From: Halorubrum sodomense
Lineage (GTDB): Archaea; Halobacteriota; Halobacteria; Halobacteriales; Haloferacaceae
DNA: 64,000 nucleotides
NCBI RefSeq assembly: GCF_900111935.1
Contig: NZ_FOYN01000002.1
Coordinates: forward strand, 372,001 to 436,000
Reading direction: 5' to 3'
The position numbers were made by a program, and so were the translations under genes. Shown piece after piece: positions 46,761 through 64,000 of the stretch (positions within the stretch are counted from its first letter, which is position 1; the number at the start of each line of letters is the position of its first letter). The notes under the pieces were generated by a model. It saw only the letters and a list, made by a program, of their open reading frames with translations, searched no databases and was not told where the DNA came from.

Positions 46761-48989
46761 ATGGTTCGACGAAGCCGCCGGGATCTGCTTCGCGACGCGG
46801 CCGCGCTCGCGACGGTCGGCGGCGGCGCGGTCGGATCGTCCACCGGCGCTCCGTCTCGATCGCGGCTCGAGCCGCCCGAAACGGGCGTCGCCCAGATCGA
46901 CCTCGGCTCGGGCGCGTCGCCGACGGCGTGGACGTCCCGCGGCGGTGGCCCGCACAACGCGGGCGTCGGCTCCGCGGAGTACATCGTCCCCGACTCCGTC
47001 GACGTCGAGTGGCATCATCAGGACCTCCGGACGTACGACCCGGGGCACACCCTCGCGGCCGCCGGTCGCGTGGTGTTCACCGGTCGTCGGCGGCTCGTCG
47101 CGGTGGAGGACCCGAACGGCGACGTCGCGTGGAACCGGCTGCTCTCATCGCCGCCGGTCGCCGCGCCCGCCATCGCGGGCGACCACGTCCTCGTCCCGCA
47201 CGCCGATCGGGTGGCCGCCCACCGGCTGGGCGACGGCGAGCGCGCGCGGTCGATCGAGCTGTCGGCGACGCCCGGCGACCTCGTCGGGGTCGGTGACGCC
47301 GCGATCACGCGGCTCGCGAACGGCGACGTCGTCCGGGTCGACGTCGCGGGAGGGGCCGCCGAGACGGTCGGCTCCGGCGACGGCGAGGCCGAGGGACGCG
47401 TCGCGGTCGACGGGTCGCGGATCGTCGTCGCCACCGACACCGGCCACGTGCGGAGCTGGGGGGGCGACGGCGGCGACGACTGGGAGAACTTCGTCGAGGA
47501 ACGCGTCCGGGTCGCGCCGATAATCGCGGGGGACTACGCCGTCGTCGCCACGACCGTCGGGTCGCTCGTCGCGATCGATCTGGACACCGGCGAGGAGGCG
47601 TGGCGTCACGAGGGCGCTGAGGGGTACTCGGTCCCGCCGGCGCACCTCAACGGGTACATCGTGGCGGCCGACGACCGGTCGAACGTGTTCGGAATCGTCG
47701 CCGGATCGGGCGACGAGCTCTGGTCGAGCACGCTGGACCACTTCGTCTTCTCCGGGCCGAGCCTCGCCGGCAACGCGGCCGTCTTCCTCGACCGCGACGG
47801 AACCGTCCACGCCTACGACTACCAGAGCGGTTCCGAGCAGTGGACCGTCGACACCCCGACCGGGACGCCGGTGAGCGAGATCGTCGTCGGCGCCGCGTCG
47901 CTCGTCGTCCACGGCGACGGGGGCGTCGCCGGGCTCTACGACCCGGCGTCGGTGTCGGCCCGCGAGAGCGTCGCCGCGCTCCAGCGCGCACTCGTCGACG
48001 GCCGGCGCACCTCGCGGCCCGCCGATATCGTCTCCGCGTACCGTGAGGCGGCTTCGGCCTTCGTCGACCGGTCGTACGACGCGGCCGAGCGGCTCGCCGA
48101 CGACGCCCGCGGGACGCTGGAAGAGACGCGGCAGGTGCGCGCCACGGCGCAAGCGCGTATCGAGGAGCTTTCGGCCGAAGTTGCCGCGACGGAAGCGTTC
48201 GATCCGACCGAGAGCGCCGACCGCCTCGCGGCCGCGGAGGACGCGTACGCCGAGGGGGACTACGAGTCGGCGGCGTCGCTGGCGGCGGCGGGGCTCGACG
48301 CGCTCGAACGACGGCGCGCGACCCGGGAGGCCGCGGCCGCGCGGGTCGAGGAGCTGTCGGCCGCGCTGGCGGACAACGCGTCCCTCGTCACTCCCGACGC
48401 CGAGGCGCGTCTCGCGGAGGCCGAGCGGGCGTTCGACCGCGAGGCGTTCGAGGACGCCGAGTCCGCGGCGACCGAGGGGCTCGACGCGCTCAACGCGACC
48501 GTCGAGGCCGCCGCGGAGGCCGACGAGGCGCTCGCGGCGCTGAGCGACGCCATCGACTCGACCCCCGAGAGCGTCCCGGTCGAGGACGTTCGGAGCGCCC
48601 GCGACGAGGCCCGGAGCGCGTACGACGCCGGCGACTACGAGGCGGCGACCGATCTGGCGACGGGGGCGGTGGCCCGACTGCGCGCCCGGCGCGAGGCGGC
48701 GAGACGCGCCCGCGAGGCCATCGACGCGGCGGCCGGCGTGAGCCGCCACGCCGCGGCCGACGTGGTCGCCGAGGTCTACGGGTACGGCGATCAGCTGTCG
48801 TCCGCGCGGGCGGCGTACGACGAGGCCGACTTCGAGCGCGCCCGCGCCGCGGCGGTCGAGGCGCGCCGGACGTACTGGGGGGCGCGGGCCACCGTCGACG
48901 GCACCATCGGCGCCGGGCTGATAACCGGCACGCTGTACATCCGCTACCCGGAGAAGTTCGCGGGGATCGCCGGTAAATTCTCGCGCTGA
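46761..48989 (+). CDS. Tat-exported beta-propeller protein with helical repeats
   Basis: A 742-aa protein. The N terminus has a twin-arginine pattern (RRSRRDLLRDAAALAT) without a lipobox. Residues about 50-400 are a PQQ/pyrrolo-quinoline-like propeller, with repeats such as VAIDLDTGEEAWRHEG and YDYQSGSEQWTVDTPTG. Residues about 400-700 are alpha-helical repeats of the form AYxxGDYExA (DAYAEGDYESAASLAAAGL, SAYDAGDYEAATDLATGAV). A weak hydrophobic segment near the C terminus (TIGAGLITGTLYIRYP) might anchor it. The family is unassigned. It starts the tubulin/Hsp70 cluster, with a TATA-like CTTATTC 22 nt upstream. Confidence 0.72.
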   Translation: MVRRSRRDLLRDAAALATVGGGAVGSSTGAPSRSRLEPPETGVAQIDLGSGASPTAWTSRGGGPHNAGVGSAEYIVPDSVDVEWHHQDLRTYDPGHTLAAAGRVVFTGRRRLVAVEDPNGDVAWNRLLSSPPVAAPAIAGDHVLVPHADRVAAHRLGDGERARSIELSATPGDLVGVGDAAITRLANGDVVRVDVAGGAAETVGSGDGEAEGRVAVDGSRIVVATDTGHVRSWGGDGGDDWENFVEERVRVAPIIAGDYAVVATTVGSLVAIDLDTGEEAWRHEGAEGYSVPPAHLNGYIVAADDRSNVFGIVAGSGDELWSSTLDHFVFSGPSLAGNAAVFLDRDGTVHAYDYQSGSEQWTVDTPTGTPVSEIVVGAASLVVHGDGGVAGLYDPASVSARESVAALQRALVDGRRTSRPADIVSAYREAASAFVDRSYDAAERLADDARGTLEETRQVRATAQARIEELSAEVAATEAFDPTESADRLAAAEDAYAEGDYESAASLAAAGLDALERRRATREAAAARVEELSAALADNASLVTPDAEARLAEAERAFDREAFEDAESAATEGLDALNATVEAAAEADEALAALSDAIDSTPESVPVEDVRSARDEARSAYDAGDYEAATDLATGAVARLRARREAARRAREAIDAAAGVSRHAAADVVAEVYGYGDQLSSARAAYDEADFERARAAAVEARRTYWGARATVDGTIGAGLITGTLYIRYPEKFAGIAGKFSR

Positions 48990-49127: not shown

Positions 49128-52100
49128 ATGCGATACGAGACCCCAGATCAGATCGTCGGTATCGGGGGTGGCGGCAAGGAGCTCGTCTACAAGCTCTTCG
49201 CGCCGACCGCCCTCGACGTCGACACGCCCGCCGATCTCACCGATGACGACCTCCGCACGTGGCTTATCGACGAGGTACTCGAGCCGAAGGGGCTCAGCGC
49301 CAACCGGCACCAACAGATTCGCATGGACGCGTTCGTCGTCGACACGGACACGGACGAGGCGAACGTCGACCGCCCCCGGGTCGACCGGATCAACGAGCTG
49401 CTGGCGGAACGCGAGGACGACCATCCCGACCCGGTCCGCGGTCCCTCTCTCTCCTACGTGAACCTCGTCGAGGACGCGACGACGAAGGCGCGACACCTCC
49501 TCAGCGAGAACAAGGTCCGGCGGGTCAGCGAGCAGACGGGCATCTCCTGCTGGTGGCTCGACGACGAGATGATCGACCCGTACGACGACTTCGGCGGCGG
49601 CGTGTTCCGCCGCCGCGCGCTCAGCAAGGCGCTGTACGGCATGGCGCAGATCGGGACCGCCGATCCGCTCGAAGGGGTCCGCAACTCGGTGTCCAGCACC
49701 AGCGACGTCGCGATGGTTGTCGGGCTCGGCGGCGGCACGGGCGCCGGAACGTTCCTCGATATCGCGAAGACGCTCAAGCGCGACCACGGCTTCCCGGACG
49801 TGACGCTGTTCGCGGTGCTGCCGCACGAAGACGAGGACGACGACCGCGGCGCGAACGCCTACGCCGCGCTCTCCGAGCTGGAGTACCTCTCGTTGACCGA
49901 TCAGAACCTCTTCGAGAGCATCGTCCTCATCCCGCAGCTGTCGGACGCCGACGAGGGCGACTTCGACGAGGCGATCATCCGCTCGATACTCAGCTACTAC
50001 ACCCTTCAGGGGAACGCGCGGAACGAGCTCAGCGTCAAGGGCTCCGGCGGGCCGCCGTCGTTCGCGCCGTTCACCGTCGCGGCTCCGCAGGTGCTCCAGT
50101 ACGAGGGCGGCGTGATCAAGCAGGCGAAGGCGCGGTTAGAGGAGTTCTACGGCAACAGGGAAGAGCTGCTCTCGACCGAGTCGGAGCTCCACGACGAGTT
50201 CGAGTCGTTCCTCGAAACGTACCACGGAGACGGACCGGGGACGGACGTGTACGGCGAGTACAACGGTCGCGGAACGGACTCGCGGTACGGCCTCACTGAG
50301 GAAGAGGTGACCTCGCTCAGCAACCGCATCGACGCCTTAGAAGAACTCGTCAGCCTCCGCGTCCTGCCGAGCATCGGCTGTACGGTCACCGACGAGCTCC
50401 GCGAGGACATCCGAGCCGCCAAGGAGTACGCGGTCGACGCCGCCGACATCGACCCGGACGAGGTCTCCGAGAGCCGTCGAAAGCGGGCGATCGTCAACGG
50501 GTTCCCCGAACAGACCGGCACGGTCGTCACGCCGAACACCGGCGAGGACAAGCCCGAGGACACCCGGCTACTGGCGCTCTACGAGAAGGAGATCGACGCG
50601 ATCGAGCGCCGTCGGGACCTCCTGTGTGCGAAGAACATGCTGAGCGAGCTCGATTCGGTGTCGTTCGACGCCGGCGACGCCACGACCGCCGCCGCGGTCG
50701 CCACGACCACCGACGTCGCCGGCGCGCTCGGCAACGCGCTCAGCGAGGACACTAAGCTGAGCCGGGACACCGGCCTCGAAGGCGACCTCGACGAGCTCGA
50801 CGGCGAGCGCAAGCGCCTCGAGACGCAGCTCCACGACCTCGACGAGCTCGCGGACGCGCTCGAGGCCGAACGCGACGCGCAGCTCGACGAGTGGGTGACC
50901 GCGGTGAGCGACGACGCGGAGACGCTCGCGAACCTCTCGGAGTACGAGACCGAGATCCGGGAGCTGCTCGGCGACCTCGAGACGGCGCTCGACGGCGCCG
51001 CGGGGGTCGCACAGGGTGCGACGTCGACCGACGACATCCCCGCGGAACCCCGCGTCGAGTTCTCGGAGACGCAGTTCGAGCGACTCAACGAGCTCCTGGA
51101 GTCCTGCGGGCTCGCGCCGCTCCGCGGCTCGGCGGTCCGCGACGAGGTCGCGTACCTCTGGCAGGCGAAACGCGAGTTCCTCCGCGACTCGGAGGGCGGG
51201 CTGCTCAGTCGCGGTCCCGACACCGAGGAGCTCCAGCGGAACCACGCGGAGCAGTACCGCGGCGCGCAGCGCAGCGACCTCGACATGGCGTTCATCCCCG
51301 AGTGGGACGAGCGTCCGGAGACGTCCGGGCGCCTTCGAACGACGGAGATCGACCGCCGACTGGATGCCCTCGACGACCTCGACCCGGTCGACGAGATCGC
51401 CGCGTCGGTCCCGTCGTTCCTCGCGGACCGCGAGGTCGACCCCGGCGCGCTGCTCGCCGAGGCCACCCGCGCGTCGCTCGACGATCCCGACCGACTGTCC
51501 GGGTTCGAGATCCCTCGGGCGGACGTCGACGAGCCGGCGATCGCCGACGCCTTCGACGGGGGCGACGTCGAGGCGGCGCTGGAGTCGCTCGTCGCTCCCG
51601 GCGGCGCGGTGTTCGAGACGTTCCACGCGGCGTACCTCGGTGACCTCGAACGCGAGCGCGAGGAGGGGGCCGCTCGCCTACGGGCGGTCGAACGCGAGAT
51701 CGAGTGGGTGACGGCGGCGACGGACCTCCTCGAACGCGGAAGCGGGTTCGCCGGACTGGCCGAGGACGTCATGGACCCCTCGTCGATCTCCGAGGTCGAC
51801 GGCGACGAGCGGGACGAGGGGATGTACGTCACCCGCGCGTCCCCCGACGACCCCGGCGAGCTGCTCAGCAGCGACAACATCGGCGAGACGAACTTCTGGG
51901 CCCGCGACGACAGCACGCTACAGTCCTCGTTACGGTCGTTCACCGAGCGGATCGAGAACCACCTGCTGCCGCTCCGGAACCCGCTCCTCGCCGTTCCCGA
52001 GGAGAATCCGGCGCGCGACGAGTACGACGAGTACCGCGCCGCGATCTCGCTGATGAGCCGCGCGATCGACCAGAACACCAGCTACGGGACCGGAGCGAAA

Positions 52101-52565
52101 CACGCGTTCGACGCCGTCGACGCCATGCTCGGGGACACGCTCGGACAGGTGGACCCGATATACTGGAACCGCGCCCGCTTCGGCGGCGCCTGGGACCTCA
52201 CGCTCACGGTGTTCCTCGGCGGGGTGATGCTTGACAACGTCGACGTGTTCGAGCAGAGCGGGAAGGGGCTGAAAGACAAGTACGAGGCGGAGCTCGGCGG
52301 CGAGCCCGGACGCCACATGATCAACCGACACGCCCACGGAATCGACGGACTGGACGCCGGTCGCGTCGACGGTCACCGGCTGATCGACGACGGGAACGAC
52401 GGCGCGTACCTCTACCGCGCCGCGCTGTTGAACCTCGACGTCGGCGTCGACGACAGGCTCCTCGTGTTGAACAACCTCGGCGATCCGGACGCGCTCAGAG
52501 ACGAACTGCTCGACCGGTACGAGTTCGTCGGGTTCGAGAGCACGCAGGACCTGGGCAACTCGTAA
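49128..52565 (+). CDS. Large tubulin-like GTPase (Tubulin_2-type)
   Basis: A 1145-aa protein. The N-terminal Gly-rich loop is IVGIGGGGKELVYKLF, and the tubulin/FtsZ signature GGGTGAG is at residues 201-207 (VVGLGGGTGAGTFLDIAKTL). Further tubulin-like blocks are LFAVLPHEDEDDDRGANAYA and FTVAAPQVLQYEGG. About 700 additional residues follow: a coiled coil around 540-590 (LDELDGERKRLETQLHDLDE) and a long helical region. FtsZ and CetZ are about 350-400 aa, so this belongs to the separate tubulin-like family that I know as PF13809. The next gene starts six bases after its stop. Confidence 0.85.
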   Translation: MRYETPDQIVGIGGGGKELVYKLFAPTALDVDTPADLTDDDLRTWLIDEVLEPKGLSANRHQQIRMDAFVVDTDTDEANVDRPRVDRINELLAEREDDHPDPVRGPSLSYVNLVEDATTKARHLLSENKVRRVSEQTGISCWWLDDEMIDPYDDFGGGVFRRRALSKALYGMAQIGTADPLEGVRNSVSSTSDVAMVVGLGGGTGAGTFLDIAKTLKRDHGFPDVTLFAVLPHEDEDDDRGANAYAALSELEYLSLTDQNLFESIVLIPQLSDADEGDFDEAIIRSILSYYTLQGNARNELSVKGSGGPPSFAPFTVAAPQVLQYEGGVIKQAKARLEEFYGNREELLSTESELHDEFESFLETYHGDGPGTDVYGEYNGRGTDSRYGLTEEEVTSLSNRIDALEELVSLRVLPSIGCTVTDELREDIRAAKEYAVDAADIDPDEVSESRRKRAIVNGFPEQTGTVVTPNTGEDKPEDTRLLALYEKEIDAIERRRDLLCAKNMLSELDSVSFDAGDATTAAAVATTTDVAGALGNALSEDTKLSRDTGLEGDLDELDGERKRLETQLHDLDELADALEAERDAQLDEWVTAVSDDAETLANLSEYETEIRELLGDLETALDGAAGVAQGATSTDDIPAEPRVEFSETQFERLNELLESCGLAPLRGSAVRDEVAYLWQAKREFLRDSEGGLLSRGPDTEELQRNHAEQYRGAQRSDLDMAFIPEWDERPETSGRLRTTEIDRRLDALDDLDPVDEIAASVPSFLADREVDPGALLAEATRASLDDPDRLSGFEIPRADVDEPAIADAFDGGDVEAALESLVAPGGAVFETFHAAYLGDLEREREEGAARLRAVEREIEWVTAATDLLERGSGFAGLAEDVMDPSSISEVDGDERDEGMYVTRASPDDPGELLSSDNIGETNFWARDDSTLQSSLRSFTERIENHLLPLRNPLLAVPEENPARDEYDEYRAAISLMSRAIDQNTSYGTGAKHAFDAVDAMLGDTLGQVDPIYWNRARFGGAWDLTLTVFLGGVMLDNVDVFEQSGKGLKDKYEAELGGEPGRHMINRHAHGIDGLDAGRVDGHRLIDDGNDGAYLYRAALLNLDVGVDDRLLVLNNLGDPDALRDELLDRYEFVGFESTQDLGNS

Positions 52566-52571
52566 CGACGG

Positions 52572-53990
52572 ATGAATCTCGAAAACGTCCGGATCGGCAA
52601 CCGGAAGCTGTCGGACGTCCTGCTGCTCGTCGGGTCGACGGTCGCGGTCGTCGCGACGGTAACGCCGCTCACGGACATGCTCGTCCGCGCGTGGACGGCC
52701 GAGGGGGTCGGTCGCACCGTGGTCCGGTTCGTCGTCGGCGCGACGCCGCTGACCCTCGAAAGCGCGGTCGTGTTCCCGCTGGGGATCGGCGCCGGACTGC
52801 TCGCGGTGTTCGCGCTCGACCGAACCAAGTTCGTTCAGGCGCTGTTGCTCGCCGCCGCCGCCGGTCCCCTGTTGGCGACGGTGTGGTACAACGGACTGTG
52901 GTTCGGCGGCCGGATCGACTGGGTCGCGAACGCGCCGTGGGGAGCTGCGGGGCTCCTCGTCGGTGCCCTGATCGGAGCCGCGGACAAGGCGGTCGCCGCC
53001 CTCACCGGGCACGACGCGCTCGGCGTCGGCCGCCGCGAGTTTCCGCTGGCGGCCGGCGCGCTGTTCGCGGCCGCCGTCGGGTTCGCGGTCGTCGGCTTCC
53101 TCGACGCGACGCTCTCCGGGACCCCCTCGGCCGCGACCGCCGTCGTCGACCTCGCGGTCTCGGTCGCGTTCGTCGGCTTCGTCGGCTTCCTCATCCAGTA
53201 CCGCGACCGGCGCGACGTCGCGGTGTTGAGCCCGAACCGGAGCGCCGAGACCCTCGTCGTCTGCGGCCTGTTCGCTCACGTCGACGACCGGTACCGGACG
53301 GTCGTCTCCGCGGGAGAGGCCGAGCTGAATCGGCTCTCGTCGAACCTCGCGGCGGGCCGAACGGTGCCGGCCGCGACCGACGAGATCGCGTTCAACGTTC
53401 ACGCCGGGGGGTGGTTCGACAACTGGACCTCGGTCTCGACGTCGGGATACGCGAACCGCCACCTCCTCGACGAACAGGTGGCCCGGGCGGCGGAGTCGAC
53501 CGACGGCGGCCGCGGATCGCTGCTCGCGCACCGGGTTCGGCGCGCCGTCACCCGCGAAACGCCGCTGACGTTCGTCGACCGGCTGCTCACCTTCGACGTG
53601 GTGTTGCTCGCGGTCCCCCTCGACCGAGAGCCGATACGGCGCGCGTTCGACCCCGCGGTCGACGACGACGACGTCGGGGCGGCGGCGTTCCTCGATCGGT
53701 ACCGGCGGTTCGTCGAGGCGACGCGCGGGCGAGACCCGACGGTCGTCGTCGTCGCGACCGGCGGCGAGACCGCGCTGACGTACTTCGAGTCCGTGTACGG
53801 CGGGACGACGATCGACAGCCCCGAACTCAGGACCGAGGTCGCACATCGGCTCGGACTGCTCTGCTCGGGGCTCGGCGAGGACGCGCCGTTCCCGGAGACG
53901 CCGGTCGTCGTCTCACGGAGCGAGGCCACGGCCGTCGATGACGGGTTGGCGGGCGCCGACCGGCTGTGGCGCGCCGTCCGCGACGCCTGA
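52572..53990 (+). CDS. Six-TM protein with degenerate GTPase-like cytosolic domain
   Basis: A 472-aa protein. Six hydrophobic helices occupy residues about 10-215 (e.g. LSDVLLLVGSTVAVVATVTP and AVSVAFVGFVGFLIQY). The cytosolic C-terminal 250 residues recall a P-loop GTPase without the P-loop lysine: ETLVVCGLFAHVDDRYRT in place of GxxxxGKS, GRTVPAATDEIAFNV like a switch I region, then FDVVLLAVPLD and VVVVATGGETA at the place of TKxD. This fold call is an inference by eye. Six bases separate it from the tubulin-like gene, so co-expression is near certain. Confidence 0.6.
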   Translation: MNLENVRIGNRKLSDVLLLVGSTVAVVATVTPLTDMLVRAWTAEGVGRTVVRFVVGATPLTLESAVVFPLGIGAGLLAVFALDRTKFVQALLLAAAAGPLLATVWYNGLWFGGRIDWVANAPWGAAGLLVGALIGAADKAVAALTGHDALGVGRREFPLAAGALFAAAVGFAVVGFLDATLSGTPSAATAVVDLAVSVAFVGFVGFLIQYRDRRDVAVLSPNRSAETLVVCGLFAHVDDRYRTVVSAGEAELNRLSSNLAAGRTVPAATDEIAFNVHAGGWFDNWTSVSTSGYANRHLLDEQVARAAESTDGGRGSLLAHRVRRAVTRETPLTFVDRLLTFDVVLLAVPLDREPIRRAFDPAVDDDDVGAAAFLDRYRRFVEATRGRDPTVVVVATGGETALTYFESVYGGTTIDSPELRTEVAHRLGLLCSGLGEDAPFPETPVVVSRSEATAVDDGLAGADRLWRAVRDA

Positions 53991-54012: not shown

Positions 54013-56001
54013 TCACGCCGCCGCGAAGAACGCGACGGCGGCGAGGACCAGCGCGCCGCCCGCCCCGGCGACGGCCAGGTAGCCTATCGTTCCGAACGCG
54101 GCCGGGGCTGCGAACGACGCCATCAGCGCGACGACGCCGACGAGCAACAGCGGCTTCGCCGCCTCGGGGCCGACGTCGCCCAGCGTCCCCCCTTCCGTTC
54201 CTCCCGTTCGGTCCGGTTCCTCCGCCCCGCCGCCGGTCGGATCGCGGATCTTGAACTTCGTCTCCTCCGACTCCAGCGTTCGGCCGTCGTCCTCGACGGT
54301 CGCGACCGCGGTGTAGAGGCCTCCCTCGTCGTGACCGTACGACCACGTCCCGCCCTCAGCCGTGCCGATCTCGCCCGTTTCGAGAATCTCGACGCTCGCT
54401 CCGTCGACCCGCTCCCCGTCCGCGTCGACGACGGTGAACTCGATGGTCTCGTCGACGGCGATCCGGTCCGTGCTCCGCTCGATCCGGACCGCGGCCTCGG
54501 CGCCCGGGTCCGGGGCGAACGCCCCACCGGACGTCTCGCCGCGAAATCCGTCGGTCGCCGCCTCGGTGCTCCCGTCCGACTCGGCGGCGCTCGTCGCCTC
54601 TCCGCTCCCGCTCCGCCCCCCGTCGTCCCCCGCTTCGGCGGCCGCGTCCCGCTCGCCGCCCGCCGTTCCGTCGTCCCCGTCGGCGTGCTCCCGCACCCTG
54701 ACGGTCGTCGCGGCAGTCCCCGTCGACTCGCCGTGGCCGTCGCGGACGGTCGCCGCGAGCTTCACCTCCCCGGGCGTCGACAGGGTGACTCGGCCGGTGC
54801 CGTCGTCGAGGAAGTACTCGTCGCCGGTGTCCGTCTCCAGCGTGACGTTCGGCACCGGGTTCTCGTCCCCGTCGACGGCGACAACCGAAACGACCTCCCC
54901 GGGATCGACCACCGTCCGGTCGAGCACCAACGAGAGCTCGGTCGGCGCCGGCGCTACTTCGATCGAGACGCTCGCGGCGTGGTACGAGCGGTCTCCGTCC
55001 GTTTTCCGAGCGGTCACGGTCTCTTCGCCGGTCTCCGCCGGTGTCAGGTGACACTCGCCGCGCGTGTCGGTCGTCGCTTCGTCGCCGGCGCCGGACACGG
55101 TCGCTCCCGGTACCGGGTCGCCGTCGGCCGTCACGGCGAACCCGACCGAATCACCGACGGTCGGAGACCGGGTCGCCGCGTCGATCGAGAGCCCGACCGG
55201 CTCTCGCGACGGCGGTTCGACCTCGACGGTCGTTGTCGCCTCGCGGTACCGGTACGCGTCCGTCCGCGACTTCCGCGCGGTGAGGTCCACCGTTCCGGGC
55301 TCGTCGAACGAGACCCGGGTTCGACCGGTCGGTGCCTCGTACCGGCCTCCCCGCGAGGTCTCGACCGTCACGTCCTCGATCCGATCGCCCTCCTCGTCGG
55401 TGACGGTGGCCATCGTCGAGTCGTCGGTCGAGAGCGTCTCGGCGTCGAGATCGAGCGATAGGTCGACGTCGATCCGGTCGACCTCCACCGCGGCGCTGTC
55501 GCTCACGTACGTCCGGTCGCCGTCCGAGCGGTCGACCGTCACCGCGTACGTGCCCGCCGCGTCGAACTCGACGGACGCCTCGCCGCGGCTGTCCGTCGTT
55601 TTCGGGTCGATCCGGGGTGCGCTCACGTCGACGTCGGGGACCGGTTCGCCGGCGCCGTCGGTCGCGCGCACCGTCACGGGATCGAAGACGGTCGTCGACG
55701 TCGGCTCCACCGCTGCGCTCAGGCGGACCACGTCCGGGTCCGTCGAGCCGGACCCGGTACCGCTTTCGCGGTCGCCTGACGGGTGTTCCGCGGTCTCCGA
55801 CTCGATGGCGTCGACGGCATCCTGAATGCGGTACAGCCGCTTTCTCGCCCACTCCTTCTCGTCTTCCGGGTACTTGTCGGGCTGGTACTTGGCCCGGGCC
55901 TTCATGCTCGCCCGTTTGATCTCGCGGTCGCTCATCTCCGGCGAGACGCCCAGCCGGTCGTAGGGGTTGTCCGCCATCGGCTCGAAGTCGAACGAGACCA
56001 T
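54013..56001 (-). CDS. J-domain protein with Ig-like repeats and C-terminal TM hairpin
   Basis: A 662-aa protein. The J domain is at residues about 11-68 (NPYDRLGVSPEMSDREIKRA), but the HPD triad reads Q40-P41-D42 in ARAKYQPDKYP. Residues about 95-450 carry about four Ig-like/Big_1-type modules (VGLSIDAATRSPTVGDSVGF and SLVLDRTVVDPGEVVSVVAV). An acidic linker and a fifth module follow, and the C terminus has two helices (LLLVGVVALMASFAAPA, YLAVAGAGGALVLAAVAFF). There is no signal peptide, so the J and Ig parts should face the cytoplasm. It is divergent from the Hsp70 gene. ATG 55977 is an alternative start. Confidence 0.8.
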   Translation of the reverse strand: MVSFDFEPMADNPYDRLGVSPEMSDREIKRASMKARAKYQPDKYPEDEKEWARKRLYRIQDAVDAIESETAEHPSGDRESGTGSGSTDPDVVRLSAAVEPTSTTVFDPVTVRATDGAGEPVPDVDVSAPRIDPKTTDSRGEASVEFDAAGTYAVTVDRSDGDRTYVSDSAAVEVDRIDVDLSLDLDAETLSTDDSTMATVTDEEGDRIEDVTVETSRGGRYEAPTGRTRVSFDEPGTVDLTARKSRTDAYRYREATTTVEVEPPSREPVGLSIDAATRSPTVGDSVGFAVTADGDPVPGATVSGAGDEATTDTRGECHLTPAETGEETVTARKTDGDRSYHAASVSIEVAPAPTELSLVLDRTVVDPGEVVSVVAVDGDENPVPNVTLETDTGDEYFLDDGTGRVTLSTPGEVKLAATVRDGHGESTGTAATTVRVREHADGDDGTAGGERDAAAEAGDDGGRSGSGEATSAAESDGSTEAATDGFRGETSGGAFAPDPGAEAAVRIERSTDRIAVDETIEFTVVDADGERVDGASVEILETGEIGTAEGGTWSYGHDEGGLYTAVATVEDDGRTLESEETKFKIRDPTGGGAEEPDRTGGTEGGTLGDVGPEAAKPLLLVGVVALMASFAAPAAFGTIGYLAVAGAGGALVLAAVAFFAAA

Positions 56002-56217: not shown

Positions 56218-56247
56218 GATGCTTCACCCGGATCGATTGACTGGTAT

Positions 56248-57849
56248 ATGACTTCGATCGGCATTGACTTGGGGACGACGAACAGCGCCGCTTCGACGCT
56301 CATCGGCGATCGCGAGGAGATCTTAGACATCGAGGGCGACCGGACCATCCGCTCCGTCGTCTCCTTCGAGCCGGGAGACGACGAGGTCATCGTCGGCAAC
56401 ATGGCCGCAGACCTGATGGAGCGCCATCCGGACCTCACGGTCTCGTCGATCAAGCGACACATGGTCGACGACGACCACACGGTCACGATCGACGACGACA
56501 GCTACGAGATGACGGAGTACGCGCCCGAGGAGATCTCCGCGCTCATTCTGAAGAAGGTCTTGGCGGGCGCCGAGGGCTCGCTCGGCGAGGCGCCCGACGG
56601 CGCGGTTATCACCGTCCCTGCCGACTTCCCCGAGAACGCGCGCGCCGCGACCCGGCGCGCCGGCGAACTCGCGGGCGTCAACGTCCTCAGACTCCTCCCG
56701 GAACCGAGCGCGGCCTGCGTCGCCTACGGGCTGCGCGACCGCGACGAGGACATCGAGCGGGTCGCGGTCTACGACCTCGGTGGCGGCACTTTCGACATCA
56801 GTCTCGTCGACGTCTCTCACGAGGACGGGTTCTACGACGTCGTCGCCACCGAGGGCGAACAGGAGCTCGGGGGCGACGACTTCGACGAGGCGCTCGCTCA
56901 GTGGATCGCCGAACAGATCGAAGACGAGACGGGCGTCGATGTCACCGACGACAGAGGGGCGTTCCTCCAGCTGAAGGGGAAAGCCAAGGACATCAAAGAG
57001 CAGCTTTCCTCCCGGAACACCGCGACGTTCCGTGACTCCGGGACGATCTCGGGCGAGAACGTCGACATCGAGATCTCCCGCGAGCAGTTCGAGGAGATCA
57101 CGGCCGACCTCGTCGAGCGGACCGTCGAGTTCAGCGAGACGGCCCTCGAAAGCCAGGACATGTCGCCGGACGACGTCGACACCGTCCTGCTCGTCGGCGG
57201 GTCGACGAAGATCCCCGCGGTTAAGGAGGCCGTCGAGGAGTTCTTCGGACAGACGCCCTCCCAGGAGGTGAACCCCGACGAGGCGGTCGCCATCGGCGCC
57301 GGCGTGTTCGCCGACTCCATCGACCCGAAGAAGGCGCTCGAGGGAGACGACGACGACGAGGACCGTGGCGGTCTCCCCTCGGACGTGCGCGTTAGCAACG
57401 TCGTCCCCGACGACCTCGGGATCGAACTCGCTTCTGGGAAGATCGATACCATCATCGAGAGCAACTCGAACCTCCCGACGATGGAGCGCAAAGAGCGGGA
57501 GTACACCACGGTCGAGGACAACCAGACGCGGGCGCTCATCAAGCTGTATCAGGGCGAAGGTGACACGGTCGACGACGGCGACCTCGAACTCAAAACCGAG
57601 TTCGTCTTAGAGAACATCCGCGAGGCGCCGAAAAACGAGCCGGAGATCACGGTTCAGGTCAAGCTCGACGAGGACGGCGTGTTGAGCGCACACGCTTGGG
57701 ACGAGTCGGTCGTCGATGGTGACCTGATCGACCCCGACGACGCCGACGAGGTCGCTGACGGCGAAGCGCACATCGACATGAACCCGTCCGGCGAGTCTGA
57801 AAAGCTGAGCGTGGAGGAGATACGCGCGCTGCTGCCCAGGATCGCCTAA
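56248..57849 (+). CDS. Lidless Hsp70/DnaK-like chaperone
   Basis: A 533-aa Hsp70, about 100 residues shorter than standard DnaK. The nucleotide-binding domain is intact: SIGIDLGTTNSAASTLIGD, VITVPADFPENARAATRRAG, LLPEPSAACVAYGL, VAVYDLGGGTFDISLVDV, and VLLVGGSTKIPAVKEAVEEF. The substrate-binding beta domain is present (DDLGIELASGKIDTIIESNS). The helical lid is missing: the protein ends SGESEKLSVEEIRALLPRIA. It sits between J-domain and GrpE-like genes and is distinct from the housekeeping dnaK, which haloarchaea carry with grpE and dnaJ elsewhere. Confidence 0.9.
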   Translation: MTSIGIDLGTTNSAASTLIGDREEILDIEGDRTIRSVVSFEPGDDEVIVGNMAADLMERHPDLTVSSIKRHMVDDDHTVTIDDDSYEMTEYAPEEISALILKKVLAGAEGSLGEAPDGAVITVPADFPENARAATRRAGELAGVNVLRLLPEPSAACVAYGLRDRDEDIERVAVYDLGGGTFDISLVDVSHEDGFYDVVATEGEQELGGDDFDEALAQWIAEQIEDETGVDVTDDRGAFLQLKGKAKDIKEQLSSRNTATFRDSGTISGENVDIEISREQFEEITADLVERTVEFSETALESQDMSPDDVDTVLLVGGSTKIPAVKEAVEEFFGQTPSQEVNPDEAVAIGAGVFADSIDPKKALEGDDDDEDRGGLPSDVRVSNVVPDDLGIELASGKIDTIIESNSNLPTMERKEREYTTVEDNQTRALIKLYQGEGDTVDDGDLELKTEFVLENIREAPKNEPEITVQVKLDEDGVLSAHAWDESVVDGDLIDPDDADEVADGEAHIDMNPSGESEKLSVEEIRALLPRIA

Positions 57850-57858
57850 ATCGGCCGC

Positions 57859-59517
57859 TCACCCGTCTCTTTCGGCCGCACCCGCCTCGTCGTTCCCGTT
57901 TCGCTCGTCGTCGCCCTCCGATTCCGATCGCGTTTCGCTCCGCGTACTCTCGCGGTCGGCGGCGGCTCGATCGGCTTCGACCTCGCTTCGGGCGGACGCC
58001 GCTTCGGTTTCCCGGTCCTCCGGCTTCGCGTCGTCGCTCGCCTCGTCGGTTCCGGCACGTTCGCCGCTCTCCTCGCTCGCCTCGTCGGTTCCGATACGCT
58101 CGTCATTCCCGTCGCTCGTCTCGTCGGGCTCGGTCGCCGCCTCGTCCTCGGGTTCAGACGCGTCGCCGGGCGCCGTTCCGCTCCCGTCGCTGATGACGAC
58201 GTTCGCCTTCTCGCGCACCTCGCCTTCGATTCGGAATCCGGGCTGTTGGGTGCTGACGACCGTCCCCTCCGGACGGTGGTCCTCGGCCCGCGTCACGGCG
58301 CGGTGCGCGTCCCTGTCGAACGACTCGCCCTCGTCCGGCTCGATCAGGCTGACGCCCTGCGCCCGGAGTACGTCGTGAAGGTCATCTAAGGCGTATTCCG
58401 CTGCCTCTTGGACGGCGTCGGGATCGTCGTGGGAGACGGCGCCGACGAGATCCGAGCGCACCTCCGAGATGACGGGACCGACGAGCGACTCATGGCCGTA
58501 GGTCTGTAGCTCGTCGATCTGATCCTCCTTCCGGTCCATCAGCGAGTTCAGCTGCGAGACCTCCTGTTCGTAGTCGGCCTCCAGCTCTTCCACCCGCTCG
58601 TCGAGGGCGGCGACCCGCTCTTCGAGTTCCGCGATGTACGCCTTGCGACGGCGGAACACCTCTTGGCTCAGGCTGGTGATGCGCTCCACGTCGTCCATCG
58701 AGTCCGGATCGATTCGGCGCACCTTCCGCTCCAGCCGGTCGGGGTCGTGCCGGCTCGGATTGATCTCCTCGTGGCGCTCGCCGACGACGTCGTCCGCCGC
58801 GGCCGCCGCCCAGGCCTCCAGCCGCTCGGCGGAGAGTATCGTTCCGAGCTGCCACTCGCCGTCGTCTCCGTCGCCCGCGTCGCTCGACCCGCCCGTGTCG
58901 GTCGCGTCCGTCGCGTCCGTCGCGCCGTCGGCGGTGTCGGCGTCCGTCGCGCCGTCGGCGGTGTCGGCGTCCGTCGCGTCTCCGTCCGGTCCCGACTCGG
59001 CGGTGCCAGCGACGGTCGTCTCGGCAACGTTCCGTTCGGAGCCGTCGGCGTCGCTCCCTCCGCCGATGCCGTCCCGATCGTCGCTCTCGACGGATCCGTC
59101 GTCCGCTGTCTCTCTGTCGTCGCCCGCTCCTCCGGACTCGGGTCCGTCGGCCGACTCGTCGGCGTGAGTCTCGTCGGAATCGGGATCTCCGTCGGCAGCG
59201 GACTCGCCGGCGTCTCCGGTTTCGTTTTCGGTAGCGGACTCGCCGGCGTCTTCCGCTTCGGTCTCGTCATCGACGTCCCCCGACGCCGCCGTCGCCACCG
59301 TCTCGTTCGGTCCTGACCCGTCCGGCTTCTCGGCGTCGACCGCGTCCGGCGTCGACTCCGCCGCGTCGGTCGCACTCCGTCCCGCTCCGCTGTTACCGGC
59401 TCGTTCGTCGTCGCTGTTCGGCGCCGATGTCCCCCCGCTTTCTCCGCTCGTCTCGTCACCGTTCTCTCCGGTCATGACGAGGCGGACGAGTCGGGTGATG
59501 TACGTTCGGATTCCCAT
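57859..59517 (-). CDS. GrpE-like nucleotide exchange factor with long acidic arms
   Basis: A 552-aa protein. Residues about 280-340 are a coiled coil (ELEERVAALDERVEELEADY) and about 342-441 a GrpE core: HESLVGPVISEVRSDLVGAV, LHDVLRAQGVSLIEPDEGES, FDRDAHRAVTRAEDHRPEGT and QQPGFRIEGEVREKANVVIS. The N-terminal 215 and C-terminal 110 residues are acidic low-complexity with tandem repeats (DADTADGAT, TDEASEE). Normal GrpE is about 200 aa. It converges with the Hsp70 gene, ending 10 nt after it. ATG 59475 is an alternative start (MTGENGDETS). Confidence 0.8.
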   Translation of the reverse strand: MGIRTYITRLVRLVMTGENGDETSGESGGTSAPNSDDERAGNSGAGRSATDAAESTPDAVDAEKPDGSGPNETVATAASGDVDDETEAEDAGESATENETGDAGESAADGDPDSDETHADESADGPESGGAGDDRETADDGSVESDDRDGIGGGSDADGSERNVAETTVAGTAESGPDGDATDADTADGATDADTADGATDATDATDTGGSSDAGDGDDGEWQLGTILSAERLEAWAAAAADDVVGERHEEINPSRHDPDRLERKVRRIDPDSMDDVERITSLSQEVFRRRKAYIAELEERVAALDERVEELEADYEQEVSQLNSLMDRKEDQIDELQTYGHESLVGPVISEVRSDLVGAVSHDDPDAVQEAAEYALDDLHDVLRAQGVSLIEPDEGESFDRDAHRAVTRAEDHRPEGTVVSTQQPGFRIEGEVREKANVVISDGSGTAPGDASEPEDEAATEPDETSDGNDERIGTDEASEESGERAGTDEASDDAKPEDRETEAASARSEVEADRAAADRESTRSETRSESEGDDERNGNDEAGAAERDG

Positions 59518-59648
59518 CTGTCGTGTGTACGGATTCCTGTCTCCATCGTCCCGTGTCGTGCGCTATGTGGAGGCACTATGTCATAAATCCCCCACGACGT
59601 CCGGATCTCGGTGCGCGGTCGACGGCGTCCGGCACAAGAGCAAAGATA

Positions 59649-59677
59649 CCACGTCACGTACCGACGGTACTACGTGG
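59649..59677. promoter_or_regulatory. 29-bp imperfect palindrome before the single-TM protein gene
   Basis: CCACGT (59649-59654) pairs with ACGTGG (59672-59677), and GTACCG (59658-59663) pairs with CGGTAC (59665-59670) around a central A. It lies 10 nt upstream of the GTG 59688 and in the 170-nt divergent spacer with the GrpE-like gene. It could be an operator or an RNA hairpin near the start codon. Confidence 0.6.
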
Positions 59678-59687
59678 CGATCCACCG

Positions 59688-61130
59688 GTGACCGCGAGCA
59701 ACCCCATTCCCCTCGACGCGTTCGCAACCGAACTCGAGTCGCTCGACAGCGACGGGCTTGCGTCGCTCGTCGGGGAGGCGTACGCGGCGACCGCCGACGC
59801 CGTCGCCGTCGACCCGCCGCGAGTCACGGTAACGGAGGGCGGGAGCCGGACCGAACTGCTCGTCGTCGCCGATCCCGGCGAGAGAGTGCGTGGCGACGCG
59901 GTTGACGCCGTCGACGCGGTCGACGCCGTCGTCGTCGCGAGCGCATCGCTGCTCGACGCCGGGCTCTCCGAGACCGACGCCGAGATCGTTTCGCCGGCGG
60001 ACCTTCGACAGCGGCTCCTGTACGCCGTGTCGCCCGCGGAGGCGAACGCGATCGCAGACCGAATTCTCGGCGTCCCAGTTCGGTCCTCGACGTACGACGC
60101 CGCGGCCGATCACGACTCCGGCGCGTCGGACGACGAAGGCGACGGAATGGCGGGCGTCGCCGGCGACGAGTCGGGTGACGGCGCGGCCGATGACGGCGAC
60201 GGAACGGCGGCCGATGACGGCGACGGAACGGCGGTCGATGACGGCGACGCGGCGACGGGCGCAGTCGCGTCGGGCGCGGCAGGGGGTGTCGTCGCTTCGG
60301 GTTCTCCGCCCGCCGACCGAACCGACGTCGGTTCGGCGGCGGAAGCGCGGACTCACGACCGATCGAGCCGGTCTACCGCCGAGGACGATCCGAGCGGCGG
60401 GGCGACGGCGACCGAATCCACCGCCGACGCGCTGACCGAGCGAACGGATCGGCGGACCGTCGTCGCGGTCGTCGCCGCCGCCGCGCTCCTCGTCGCGGCG
60501 GCAGGGGTCGGGTTCGCCGCCGGCACCGCCGGTATCGGCGGTCCGGGCGGCGTCGCCGGCGTCGGGGACGACGGCACGACCGAACGGTCGCCGGGGGACT
60601 CGGACCCGACCGGACCGACGGACGGCAGCGCCGGCGGCAGCGAGGGGTCGACCGCGGGCGGCGACGCCACGAACCCCGTCGCGGTCGCGGACGGCGACCC
60701 GACCGGCGAAGCCGCCAGGAACACGGCGCTTTCCCCGACCTGCGACCGCTCCGCCCTTCAGGTCGTTCAGATCCAGATGAACGCGCTCCGCTACAACGAC
60801 AACGCGACGAACGACGGTATCCGGACCGTGCGAGCGTTCGCCTCGCCGGAGAACAAGGATATCGTCGGCGCAATCGGTCAGTACGTCGAGCTGTTCGAGA
60901 CGCCGCGGTACGCGCCGATGCTCACGTACGACGCCGTACAGTACTCCGCTCCGGAAATCGCCGACGGAACCGCCGAAATCGAGGTCGTCACGCGGGAGAA
61001 CGGCAGCGTCACCGGCCGATACGAGTTCCGGCTCGTGCGGGTGCCCGGCGGGACTGAGAACACCGATAGCTCGCTCGGTGACGTCGACGACTGTTGGATG
61101 ACCGACGCCGTGGCGGCGTCGGCGGAGTGA
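59688..61130 (+). CDS. Single-TM protein with external DUF4864-like domain
   Basis: A 480-aa protein with a GTG start. Residues 1-150 form a cytosolic alpha/beta domain (ELLVVADPGERVRGD, EIVSPADLRQRLLYAVSPAE) of unknown function. An acidic repetitive linker follows. One transmembrane helix is at about residues 265-285 (RTVVAVVAAAALLVAAAGVG). The C-terminal part (ALQVVQIQMNALRYNDNATN to DDCWMTDAV) resembles DUF4864 domains. It would sit outside the cell. The location in the Hsp70 cluster is the main clue to function. Confidence 0.65.
   Translation: MTASNPIPLDAFATELESLDSDGLASLVGEAYAATADAVAVDPPRVTVTEGGSRTELLVVADPGERVRGDAVDAVDAVDAVVVASASLLDAGLSETDAEIVSPADLRQRLLYAVSPAEANAIADRILGVPVRSSTYDAAADHDSGASDDEGDGMAGVAGDESGDGAADDGDGTAADDGDGTAVDDGDAATGAVASGAAGGVVASGSPPADRTDVGSAAEARTHDRSSRSTAEDDPSGGATATESTADALTERTDRRTVVAVVAAAALLVAAAGVGFAAGTAGIGGPGGVAGVGDDGTTERSPGDSDPTGPTDGSAGGSEGSTAGGDATNPVAVADGDPTGEAARNTALSPTCDRSALQVVQIQMNALRYNDNATNDGIRTVRAFASPENKDIVGAIGQYVELFETPRYAPMLTYDAVQYSAPEIADGTAEIEVVTRENGSVTGRYEFRLVRVPGGTENTDSSLGDVDDCWMTDAVAASAE
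60189..60254 (+). repeat. Tandem 24-nt repeat in the linker of the single-TM gene
   Basis: Units starting at 60189, 60213 and 60237 (GATGACGGCGACGGAACGGC pattern, the last partial) encode a DDGDGTA-type acidic linker. Copy number is likely to vary between strains. Confidence 0.75.
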
Positions 61131-61212
61131 GACGGCGGCGCTCGGTTCCCTCGACGCGCCCACGCGACCGCCTCGCCGTACTCTTTTGTCACCCCGCTCG
61201 CATACGACAGAT

Positions 61213-62877
61213 ATGACATCCGGCCCAGCGATCGAGCTCATTCCCCCGAACATCTCCAGCGACACCGGCATCGAACGCTCGGGCGACGGGGCGGTCGACG
61301 ACGACCCGATCCCCCTCCTCGGGAAGTCCACCGGCGGCGGGTCATCGCTCGTCACGACCGACGACTATCCGTACGTCACCGTCCACGCCAACGTCGACAC
61401 GCCGGGACCGGGGGTGGAGCGGTTCGGTAAGAACAGCTTCGCCGTTCGGGAGGACGGCGAGCCGACCGACCTCGAACGCGTGACGTTCCTCGGCGACGAG
61501 CTCGATCTCGTCTTCGTCTTCGACGACACGGGGAGCATGTCCGACGAGATCGAGGGCGCGAAGGAGGGAGTCAGGTTCCTCACCGAGGAGATAGACGCTC
61601 GGGAGATGGACGCGCGCTACTCGCTCGTGACGTTCAAAAACGATCCCACGGTCCGGACCGCGTTCACTCGCGACGCGGAGACCGTCACCTCGCACGTCGA
61701 CGACCTGTACGCCAGCGGCGGCGGCGAGATCCCCGAAGGGAACTTCGACGCGATCGAACGCGCGCTCGACCTCGACTACCGGCCGGACGCCCAGCGCGTG
61801 ATGGTCGACATCACCGACGCCCCCTCCCACTTCGACGGAGACGGCAGCGACGTCTCCGACTACACCTTCGACGACGTGGCCGAGGACCTCCGTGCGTCCG
61901 GGGTGACGTTCGTCTCCGTCGCGCCGGACGTCGAGGACCGCCGGTCGAGCGCGAAGTCGCTGACCTCCGCGGTCGGCGGATTCTGGACGGACATCTCCGA
62001 GACGCGCATGGGCCGAACGGACAACTTCGAGTCGGTGCTCAGGCGGATCACGGACCTCCTCACCTCGACGTACGAGATCGAGTTCCACACCTGTACGCCG
62101 CCGGGTACCGCCCGCGAACTCGAGGTCGAGTTCGACGGGGACCGCGGGACCGACGCCGCGACGGCGACGCTGTCGGTGCCGGAGCGGTTCGACCTGCCGC
62201 CCGAGTGCGCCGAGTCCGACCCCGAGCCGGTCGACTCGCGGGAGACCGCCCTGTTCCTCGACGTCGACCGCAACGCCCTCCCAGCGGGCGAGACGGTGAC
62301 GGTCACGGTGCGGTCCGCGGACAACGACTTCGTGGTGGGCGCGGCCGTCGAGGCGGCCGACGAGCGCGCGGAGACGAACCGCGCCGGGCGGGCGGAGCTC
62401 GAACTCTCCGACCCCGGTCCGCAGACGATCACCGCGACCGCGCCCGACGGCGACGCGACAGAGACGATCACGGTCGACATCGAGGCGCCGTCGGACGGCC
62501 CGGCGAGCGACATCGAACCGTCGCCTGGCGGCATCGAGACGTCTCCAGAGGGCCTCGAAACCGCTCCCGGCGGTATCGAGACGTCCCCCGGCGGTACCGA
62601 GGGAACCGACGACGGGGGAAGCGACACGGAGGGGGCGCTCGTCGTCGAGCCGAGCCGGTGGCGCACCGACGTCGGCGAGGAGGTGACGTTCACCGTTCGG
62701 AACCTCGACGGCGATCTGCTAGCCGACGCGACGGTGGAGGCGGCCGGCGAGACGAAGGCGACGAACCGCGCCGGGAACTGCTCGTTCGCCTTCGAGGAAC
62801 CGGGGACGGTGACCGTCACTGCGACGCGAGACGACATGGACCCCGACGCCATCGACATCGACATCGAGACGGCGTGA
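61213..62877 (+). CDS. vWA-domain protein with two Ig-like modules
   Basis: A 554-aa protein. The von Willebrand A domain is at residues about 95-295. The MIDAS loop is D104-D-T-G-S108 in VFVFDDTGSMSDEI, with VMVDITDAPSHFDGDG supplying a later metal ligand. Two Ig-like modules (LFLDVDRNALPAGETVTVTV and EPSRWRTDVGEEVTFTVRNL) flank a repeat linker at about residues 435-463. No signal peptide or transmembrane helix is seen, so it should be cytoplasmic. The Ig-like modules are the same type as in the J-domain protein of the cluster. Confidence 0.85.
   Translation: MTSGPAIELIPPNISSDTGIERSGDGAVDDDPIPLLGKSTGGGSSLVTTDDYPYVTVHANVDTPGPGVERFGKNSFAVREDGEPTDLERVTFLGDELDLVFVFDDTGSMSDEIEGAKEGVRFLTEEIDAREMDARYSLVTFKNDPTVRTAFTRDAETVTSHVDDLYASGGGEIPEGNFDAIERALDLDYRPDAQRVMVDITDAPSHFDGDGSDVSDYTFDDVAEDLRASGVTFVSVAPDVEDRRSSAKSLTSAVGGFWTDISETRMGRTDNFESVLRRITDLLTSTYEIEFHTCTPPGTARELEVEFDGDRGTDAATATLSVPERFDLPPECAESDPEPVDSRETALFLDVDRNALPAGETVTVTVRSADNDFVVGAAVEAADERAETNRAGRAELELSDPGPQTITATAPDGDATETITVDIEAPSDGPASDIEPSPGGIETSPEGLETAPGGIETSPGGTEGTDDGGSDTEGALVVEPSRWRTDVGEEVTFTVRNLDGDLLADATVEAAGETKATNRAGNCSFAFEEPGTVTVTATRDDMDPDAIDIDIETA
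62515..62598 (+). repeat. Four tandem 21-nt units in the vWA protein linker
   Basis: Each unit encodes seven residues (EPSPGGI, ETSPEGL, ETAPGGI, ETSPGGT). It connects the two Ig-like modules and looks like a flexible Pro/Gly spacer. The codons differ between copies, so the repeat is selected at protein level or old. Confidence 0.75.
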
Positions 62878-62933: not shown

Positions 62934-64000
62934 TCAGTCGCCGCGCCGTGCGACTGCGACGCCGCCGGCGGCGAGTAGTCCGACGAGGAGGACCTGTCCG
63001 AGCACCACCGTCGCGAACACGGCCGCTCCCGGCTCGGCGGTGAACGCGTACGCGACGCCGACAGCCGCGGCGGCCGCCACGGCGCCGACCGCCACGCCGC
63101 CGGCGATACCGGTCGCCAGCCACTCCCGCCGTCGTCGAGTGTCCGCCGCGGGGTCGACGACGTCGATCCCCTCGGTGACGTGTTCGAAGACGACCTCGAG
63201 GTACTGGTCGGCCGGTTCGTCCGCGACGAGCCCCGCCGCGTCGATCCCGTCGGCTTCGTACCACTCGTTCAGCCGGTCGCGGAGGAACTCGTCGTCGACC
63301 TCGTCGATCAGCTCCCCGGCCGCCTCGATCGACTCCCGCATCGAGCTGAGCTGCCCGGCGCTTTTCGGATCGAGGCTGTCCGGGCCGCCTCCGGCCAGGT
63401 ACGCAAGGGGTTTGAACGCGTCGCGGACCCCACCGACCCTCGAGACGGCCGCCGCCGCTCCGACGGCGGCGATCCCGCCGACGACGGCGAGGAGCCCCCA
63501 CAGCGGGACGAAGAGCGGCTGTACCGGGGTCAACGCGTCTATTGCGACTCCCGGGAGGGCCCGGACGGTGACCGGTTCGGTGAGCGCGGCGACGAACGCG
63601 CCGCCGAGCCCCGACCACGCGAGGTAGCCGAGCGCGGCGAGAGACAGCACCGCAGCCGTCGCGGCCACGACCAGCGCCTTCGAGGTCCGCTCGAGCCGGT
63701 ACGGCGGTGCGGGCCGCAGCGTCGGCGCCCGCTCGGAGGCCTCGGAGACGGCGGTCGCGAGCGACTCCTGCCACCGTCTCGGGAACACCTCGCCGTCGAC
63801 CGAGCGCTCCCGTACCTCGCGGAACTCCCGCTTGGCGGCGGCGGCGCTGTCGGCCAGCCGGGCGAACGCGATCCGGTCGCCGGTCTGCGCGCGCGGCTCC
63901 ACGTCGGTGTAGTTGAGGGAGCTCGGCATCACGACCACGTCGACGCCGTCGAGGAAATCCGCCCGACCGCTTCCGGAGATGGCGACGGTCCCGTCGAATC
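62934..64000 (-). CDS. Four-TM membrane protein, truncated by the window edge
   Basis: About 355 residues are visible. The frame is open to 64000, so the N terminus is missing. The part before the membrane (FDGTVAISGSGRADFLDGVD, then VVVMPSSLNYTDVEPRAQTG) is an unidentified alpha/beta domain. Helices are near VVAATAAVLSLAALGYLAWS, FVPLWGLLAVVGGIAAVGAA, GIAGGVAVGAVAAAAAVGVA and VVLGQVLLVGLLAAGGVAV. A 115-residue soluble helical segment separates helices two and three. It converges with the vWA gene and is likely part of the same cluster. Confidence 0.6.
   Translation of the reverse strand, partial: FDGTVAISGSGRADFLDGVDVVVMPSSLNYTDVEPRAQTGDRIAFARLADSAAAAKREFREVRERSVDGEVFPRRWQESLATAVSEASERAPTLRPAPPYRLERTSKALVVAATAAVLSLAALGYLAWSGLGGAFVAALTEPVTVRALPGVAIDALTPVQPLFVPLWGLLAVVGGIAAVGAAAAVSRVGGVRDAFKPLAYLAGGGPDSLDPKSAGQLSSMRESIEAAGELIDEVDDEFLRDRLNEWYEADGIDAAGLVADEPADQYLEVVFEHVTEGIDVVDPAADTRRRREWLATGIAGGVAVGAVAAAAAVGVAYAFTAEPGAAVFATVVLGQVLLVGLLAAGGVAVARRGD

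Follow-up and report, generated by a model that had tools for sequence, protein, structure and literature searches.

A tubulin-like FtsZl1 protein with a predicted split fold, encoded beside a membrane pseudo-GTPase and a chaperone gene set in Halorubrum sodomense

The FtsZl1 family was founded in 2010 by Makarova and Koonin on Huta_2051, a protein of 1051 residues from Halorhabdus utahensis, and together with vWA, GTPase, and membrane proteins it was proposed to form a membrane-remodelling machine. The T6-H7 elements and the C-terminal tubulin domain were not identifiable in these proteins, and filament formation was left undecided (PMC2875224). The bacterial GTPase-centric (DO-GTPase/GAP1) conflict systems (eLife 2020, PMC7159879) are built of comparable parts; their tubulin and HSP70 themes are described as not overlapping, and Methanosarcina and Cuniculiplasma are the archaea that the article mentions by name. 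We analyzed a stretch of 64,000 nucleotides from Halorubrum sodomense, hereafter the window (assembly GCF_900111935.1, contig NZ_FOYN01000002.1, positions 372,001–436,000), which carries at 49128–52565, on the forward strand, an ATG-initiated open reading frame (ORF) for a tubulin-like protein of 1145 residues. This protein, correctly described in an initial annotation as three times the length of FtsZ, is almost certainly a member of the FtsZl1/Tubulin_2 family (PF13809). No experimental or structural study of FtsZl1 was found in the literature searched.

The window protein resembles Huta_2051 in its family, length class, N-terminal FtsZ-like domain with a T4 signature, coiled coil behind that domain, and mostly helical remainder. 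As for the FtsZl1 genes described in 2010, vWA, GTPase, and membrane protein genes lie in the neighborhood and the protein is not the division FtsZ. It departs from that description by a second tubulin half, predicted here behind the coiled coil, and by a membrane GTPase that is catalytically dead and a set of Hsp70, GrpE, and DnaJ genes, neither of which is described in the main text of PMC2875224. Neither the family nor a role at the membrane is new here, both going back to the 2010 proposal; what goes beyond the initial annotation is the predicted split fold, the degenerate GTPase as partner, the conservation of this pairing, a live GTPase paralog just past the window, and the cluster of Hsp70, GrpE, DnaJ-like, and vWA genes. 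With the systems of PMC7159879, the locus shares double GTPases with a DxxGE Walker B motif and transmembrane (TM) helices, a tubulin, a vWA protein, HSP70/GrpE, and DnaJ fused to β-sandwich repeats, the J-like domains being devoid of the HPD histidine. Unlike in those systems, the tubulin and HSP70 themes share a single locus, and the GTPase that adjoins the tubulin is the dead member of its pair. GAP1 (PF20013), their defining partner, was absent from the nine genomes tested, and we therefore do not count this locus among the DO-GTPase/GAP1 systems, although its parts are of the same kind.

Two other groups of tubulins are relevant. CetZ proteins provide the best structural matches (Haloferax 4b46 and Methanosaeta 3zid, 302–303 residues aligned with a Z-score of about 19), yet they share only 11–15% identity with the window protein and have no inserted coiled coil. 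We know of no membrane GTPase partner of CetZ. TubZ is likewise a tubulin-superfamily GTPase, and some FtsZl1 genes are plasmid-borne; the window protein differs from it in size and by the coiled-coil insertion, and its gene lies near core genes. No TubR-like partner was noticed at the window locus, although no search was aimed at TubR.

Family assignment relies on a match of residues 185–257 to PF13809 (39.4 bits, E 5.7e-10, with the curated cut-off at 27), on structural matches of a predicted model, and on conservation of the protein in Halobacteria. The general tubulin profile PF00091 scores 22.8 bits, below its cut-off, and the FtsZ equivalog TIGR00065 only 14.7 bits against a cut-off of 295.2. 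The host genome encodes five further tubulin-superfamily proteins above the PF00091 cut-off, two resembling FtsZ1/FtsZ2 and others CetZ by sequence; with other FtsZ-like genes at hand, the 1145-residue protein is therefore not the division FtsZ. There is no solved structure of a close relative, the best being OdinTubulin at an E-value of 0.13.

An AlphaFold2 model, built with 20 relatives and with a mean predicted local distance difference test score (pLDDT) of 70, displays a two-domain tubulin fold. The comparison with FtsZ, CetZ, TubZ, and PF13809 proposed in the initial annotation thus came out in favor of a tubulin. The best 50 Foldseek matches are all FtsZ, tubulin, or TubZ, with a probability of about 1, and the best 50 obtained with VIA are all CetZ, FtsZ, or tubulin, with Z-scores of 16.7–19.0. 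The top VIA match, CetZ 3zid chain B (Z 19.0, r.m.s. deviation of 3.8), aligns 303 of 342 residues over the model range 2–1062; CetZ1 4b46 follows at 18.9, FtsZ at about 18, and tubulin at about 17. One FtsZ chain, some 300 residues long, has 270 of them aligned, ending at model residue 1033, a match for which the N-terminal part alone can hardly account. The protein had initially been described as unlike FtsZ or CetZ, a view that an alignment across nearly the whole CetZ/FtsZ fold does not support. A coiled-coil and helical stretch of some 700 residues had also been placed after the GTPase domain; the model is indeed helical there, but strands resume after residue ~895, and the region is hence an insertion and not a tail.

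In the model, the first half of the tubulin fold spans residues 1–326 (49128–50105), in agreement with the VIA alignment, with strands at 8–12, 67–72, 107–112, 193–199, 224–231, and 264–269, a helix at 276–292, and a strand at 315–325. It is followed by an inserted helical region (residues ~336–884, 50133–51779), whose coiled coil is read from the long model helices 327–366, 550–630, and 838–881. The second half, drawn from the model, VIA, and short paralogs, covers residues ~885–1135 (51780–52532) and comprises a strand at 970–977, a helix at 991–1004, and strands at 1011–1016 and 1023–1033. The β-α-β-α-β-β order of FtsZ thus spans both sides of the coiled coil in the model, and strand 315–325 with its helix and the 970–1033 elements would correspond, in our reading, to the FtsZ order S7-H9-S8-H10-S9-S10; VIA gives only the first and last aligned residues, so that the pairing of individual strands in the second half comes from our reading of element order and not from the tool itself. 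Hence the tubulin fold is, with high probability, complete but split, a coiled-coil arm of about 550 residues being inserted in its second domain.

Natural short paralogs offer an independent test of the split. In two intact proteins, from Halorubrum rubrum (locus L048, 562 residues) and H. aquaticum (L053, 560 residues), positions 6–324 of the FtsZl1 profile (E about 1e-105) are directly joined to positions 833–1059 (E 1e-35 and 3e-41); the 510 missing positions correspond to window residues ~336–884, their edges mapping to 335 and 885. Nature thus drops the arm and joins its two flanks. The T4 loop of both short forms is broken (GGATSG), and the ratio of nonsynonymous to synonymous substitution rates (dN/dS) between the two species is 0.50, which together indicate weak constraint. 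Conservation along the long proteins fits a split fold as well: columns conserved at ≥80% make up 31% of residues 193–326 and 16% of residues 960–1060, with only 1–5% between them (327–950). The short paralogs (L048:9992–11680, L053:5165–6847, and also L027:8155–9843) could serve the long proteins as caps or regulators.

The T4 loop GGGTGAG (residues 201–207, 49728–49748), taken from the outset as the tubulin/FtsZ nucleotide-binding signature, is confirmed as such by the PF13809 match and by its invariant glycines. Among the 20 relatives, G202, G203, G205, and G207 are invariant, as are G13 and G16 of a T1-like loop (G13–K17, 49164–49178); position 206 is Ser in 19 of the 20 and Ala in the window protein, where the usual residue is Ser or Thr. 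The T7 catalytic loop, whose inspection had been suggested in the initial annotation, turned out differently. In place of the NxDFAD motif of FtsZ with its catalytic aspartate, the segment from helix 276–292 to strand 315–325 reads LQGNARNELSVKGSGGPPSFAPF, and the loop just before the strand is KGSGG, with no conserved acid, against DPFAD in type-A relatives. A T7-like D[PV]FA[DN] motif is found in 26 of 36 proteins that have a live GTPase partner and in none of the 11 whose partner is dead, a trait that is clustered in the tree and thus reflects few events; that D-P-F-A-D corresponds to the T7 loop of FtsZ is what we infer. T1 and T4 are retained in most type-B (dead-partner) proteins.

The next gene (52572–53990, forward strand) starts six bases past the tubulin stop codon and encodes about six hydrophobic helices, as initially reported. 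According to the model and to an alignment with paralogs, its product consists of about six TM helices (residues 1–208) and a GTPase-fold domain (residues 210–472), and a Pfam scan of the protein matched no family. Its live relatives are membrane-anchored P-loop GTPases with GPxxSGKS, DYAGE (DYxGE), and TKxD motifs; at the aligned sites the window protein reads LSPNRSAET (P-loop), TSGYANRHL (Walker B), and ATGGE (TKxD). The modeled domain nevertheless matches YcjX (Z 12.7), Tsr1 (12.2), and Ras-like small GTPases (about 11) in the PDB. Tsr1 is itself a GTPase-like protein without activity. The partner is therefore very probably a membrane-anchored pseudo-GTPase, in which the fold is kept and every catalytic motif is lost. 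A live paralog is encoded in the host genome at ~65857–67659, just outside the window. Profile-profile comparison of the live GTPases with planctomycete DO-GTPase2, over the P-loop, DxxGE, and TKxD motifs, gave 96.0% (E 4e-9) against 17.2% and 12.8% for two control GTPase families. A single search with the hidden Markov model PF19993 (DO-GTPase2) in three genomes (G000, G022, and G242) at E 1e-3 found no match, so that the kinship with DO-GTPases is carried by the profile-profile comparison. The profile of the archaeal membrane GTPase (A3) found no counterpart in the bacterial Tubulin_2 genomes G403–G406.

The link between tubulin and membrane protein, first suggested by their adjacency, is strong: among 54 long archaeal FtsZl1 genes, 49 are directly followed by a membrane GTPase, mostly with gaps of a few bases or overlaps. 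By the P-loop pattern, 37 of these GTPases are live and 12 dead. A live paralog is also present in 10 of the 11 other dead-partner loci, as in the host genome; at locus L122, the second GTPase lacks the P-loop pattern too, and this locus may have none alive. Dead-partner tubulins lie on one side of a branch with 100% support, and the dead state is thus an old trait of a single branch. A 'third' protein family follows the live GTPase in most loci. This third protein, considered as a possible GAP1, was rejected, since it scored 0.1% against the GAP1 profile and PF20013 was absent.

The FtsZl1 gene is accessory and patchy. Among 59 relatives, a clear homolog occurs in 8 of the 34 congeners, and strong matches (E <1e-50) in 46 of 391 genomes of the class, about 12%. 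Plasmid-borne members are found in Haloplanus, Halorubrum, a Natrialbaceae archaeon, and the methanogen Methanohalobium; the window copy adjoins core genes, for example that of ribosomal protein L15e. A plasmid of Halorubrum sp. BOL3-1 (L029 and L028, a contig of 117 kb) carries two very different FtsZl1 genes, of which the L028 copy has no GTPase neighbor.

The DnaJ-like, Hsp70, GrpE, and vWA genes are flanked by the tubulin pair on one side and the live GTPase on the other. The DnaJ-like protein (54013–56001, reverse strand; PF00226 at 28.1 bits, PF13620, PF13115) carries Ig, carboxypeptidase-regulatory-like, and YtkA-like β-domains and two C-terminal TM helices. Its HPD motif reads QPD, and all five DnaJ-like proteins have QPD, NPD, or LPD; with the histidine lost, these proteins might fail to stimulate Hsp70 as canonical J-proteins do. 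The accessory Hsp70 (56236–57849, forward strand; 537 residues, PF00012 at 395 bits) has a short C-terminus and shares 50% identity with its counterparts at two further FtsZl1 loci. It is one of only two Hsp70s in the host genome, the other being a separate, canonical DnaK. GrpE (57859–59517, reverse strand; PF01025 at 66 bits) has a long acidic N-terminal extension and is kept in loci L119, L033, and L185. The vWA protein (61186–62877, forward strand; PF25106 at 63.5 bits) ends in Ig-like repeats, shows no TM segment or signal peptide, and shares 38% identity over 594 residues with its L119 counterpart. Four loci (the window, L119, L033, and L185) combine Hsp70 and GrpE with vWA and/or DnaJ-like genes; L119 has the chaperone/vWA set, as does L033, there with no vWA in the stretch examined. 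Identities of the remaining proteins across these loci are 26–35%. A Haloplanus rubicundus plasmid carries vWA, Hsp70, GrpE, FtsZl1, dead GTPase, and live GTPase genes, and one for a protein annotated as PQQ whose start resembles that of the third protein. On a BOL3-1 plasmid, Hsp70 and vWA genes lie near a live-partner FtsZl1 copy. In all likelihood, the chaperones belong to the cluster.

These observations lead us to favor, at a probability of about 0.5, a membrane-tethered, chaperone-controlled GTP-binding scaffold with the live GTPase as its switch. Computation supports the family, the fold, the dead state of the partner, the live paralog, and the conservation of the cluster; polymerization, recruitment, switching, chaperone control, and role are what we infer from them. 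Residues 1–335, with the GTP-binding site, and 885–1135 would form one tubulin body from which the helical arm of ~550 residues projects. This body may bind guanine nucleotide through T1 and T4 and probably stacks into protofilaments, and we hold its polymerization to be somewhat more probable than the contrary. The pseudo-GTPase of the operon would hold the tubulin at the membrane; having lost every catalytic motif, it cannot switch, and the live paralog may supply the switch, possibly by pairing with the dead GTPase as subunits. The vWA protein, Hsp70, GrpE, and membrane-bound DnaJ-like protein could then load, remove, or remodel the assembly. The most likely use would be an inducible accessory response to stress or conflict at the cell membrane, and not cell division, because FtsZ- and CetZ-like genes are encoded elsewhere in the genome. 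Several points weigh against this scaffold. Model confidence is moderate, with T4 residues 204–206 below a pLDDT of 50 and the whole built on 20 sequences, and a sequence profile comparison of the C-terminal half with FtsZ/CetZ gave 0.1%, that is no link, so that the evidence for the split comes from the model and the short paralogs. The acid of T7 used by FtsZ for GTP hydrolysis is not conserved, which makes GTP turnover and dynamics doubtful, and TKxD reads TFAD in the live GTPase of the host, leaving its nucleotide preference unsure. Of the loci examined, just five include an Hsp70, and a PADLOC search for known defense families gave no match.

Of the other readings, a conflict (defense) system dependent on nucleoside triphosphate and similar to the bacterial double-GTPase ones, where membrane sensing would trigger tubulin/Hsp70 assembly against an invader or the cell itself, uses the same kinds of parts (a DO-GTPase relative, two paralogs, tubulin, vWA, and HSP70/GrpE/DnaJ with β-domains) and fits the accessory, partly plasmid-borne distribution. 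The lack of GAP1, which the third protein does not replace, the negative PADLOC result, and the fact that no effector enzyme was seen make it somewhat unlikely. A constitutive membrane-remodelling or vesicle cytoskeleton that shapes the envelope, linked to the S-layer by GTPases and β-sandwich proteins, develops the idea of PMC2875224 and agrees with membrane proteins in nearly every locus and with extracellular Ig-like/PQQ partners. Presence in so few Halobacteria and congeners, and on plasmids, does not suit a basic envelope function, and the Hsp70 set would be left unexplained; we regard this cytoskeleton as unlikely. Type-B proteins, with T7 lost and a dead partner, might also act as a GTP-binding scaffold that neither polymerizes nor cycles, a static tether or signaling platform, as the segregation of the T7-like motif with live partners would suggest. 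The retention of T1 and T4 in most of them speaks against it, and tubulin polymerization itself does not require hydrolysis, so we consider such a platform rather improbable. Mere chance neighborhood of chaperones, vWA, and tubulin could be invoked from the mixed gene orientations in the window; with only two Hsp70 genes in the genome and sets recurring in L119, L033, and L185 at 26–50% identity despite rearrangement, it is hardly credible. The role of the favored scaffold would thus lie between conflict or stress response and membrane remodelling. More tentatively, the cluster might encode split-tubulin membrane filaments anchored by the pseudo-GTPase, switched by the live paralog, and disassembled by Hsp70, GrpE, and the J-like protein, a machine not described as a unit before.

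For FtsZl1 proteins, which have ranked as the most divergent tubulins ever since 2010, the polymerization question has stayed open because the second domain could not be found; a second domain behind the coiled coil makes it directly testable, and the natural variants of 560 residues suggest cut points for a compact construct. The constant pairing with live or dead membrane GTPases and the private Hsp70 set provide concrete candidate partners, and the cluster ties tubulin and chaperone cycle together in cultivable, genetically tractable archaea.

Other genes flank this set. Directly upstream of the tubulin, at 46761–48989 on the forward strand, a PQQ β-propeller (PF13360 at 90 bits) has a Tat-like N-terminus and a C-terminal TM helix; about a dozen other FtsZl1 loci have PQQ proteins nearby, and its membership is likely, if less well supported. 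A protein with one strong TM helix (59523–61130, forward strand) was not found in other loci and is of uncertain membership. The third protein, with TM hairpins, is encoded on the reverse strand from 62934; its C-terminal part reaches the window end at 64000, and the gene continues to ~65849 (L030 = window + 58000).

Further observations concern other loci. A small conserved protein of ~130 residues with the motif PYPHNFxV lies beside the chaperone/vWA genes in L119 (532–909) and L185 (10997–11398) and was not seen in the window. In Halorubrum alkaliphilum (L026:2421–4679), the FtsZl1-GTPase-third protein operon is followed by a gene whose product weakly matches a kinase and has carboxypeptidase-regulatory-like repeats as well as a TM helix. 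Finally, an FtsZl1 similar to the archaeal ones is encoded on a contig labeled as candidate division WOR-3 bacterium (L051:876–3734).

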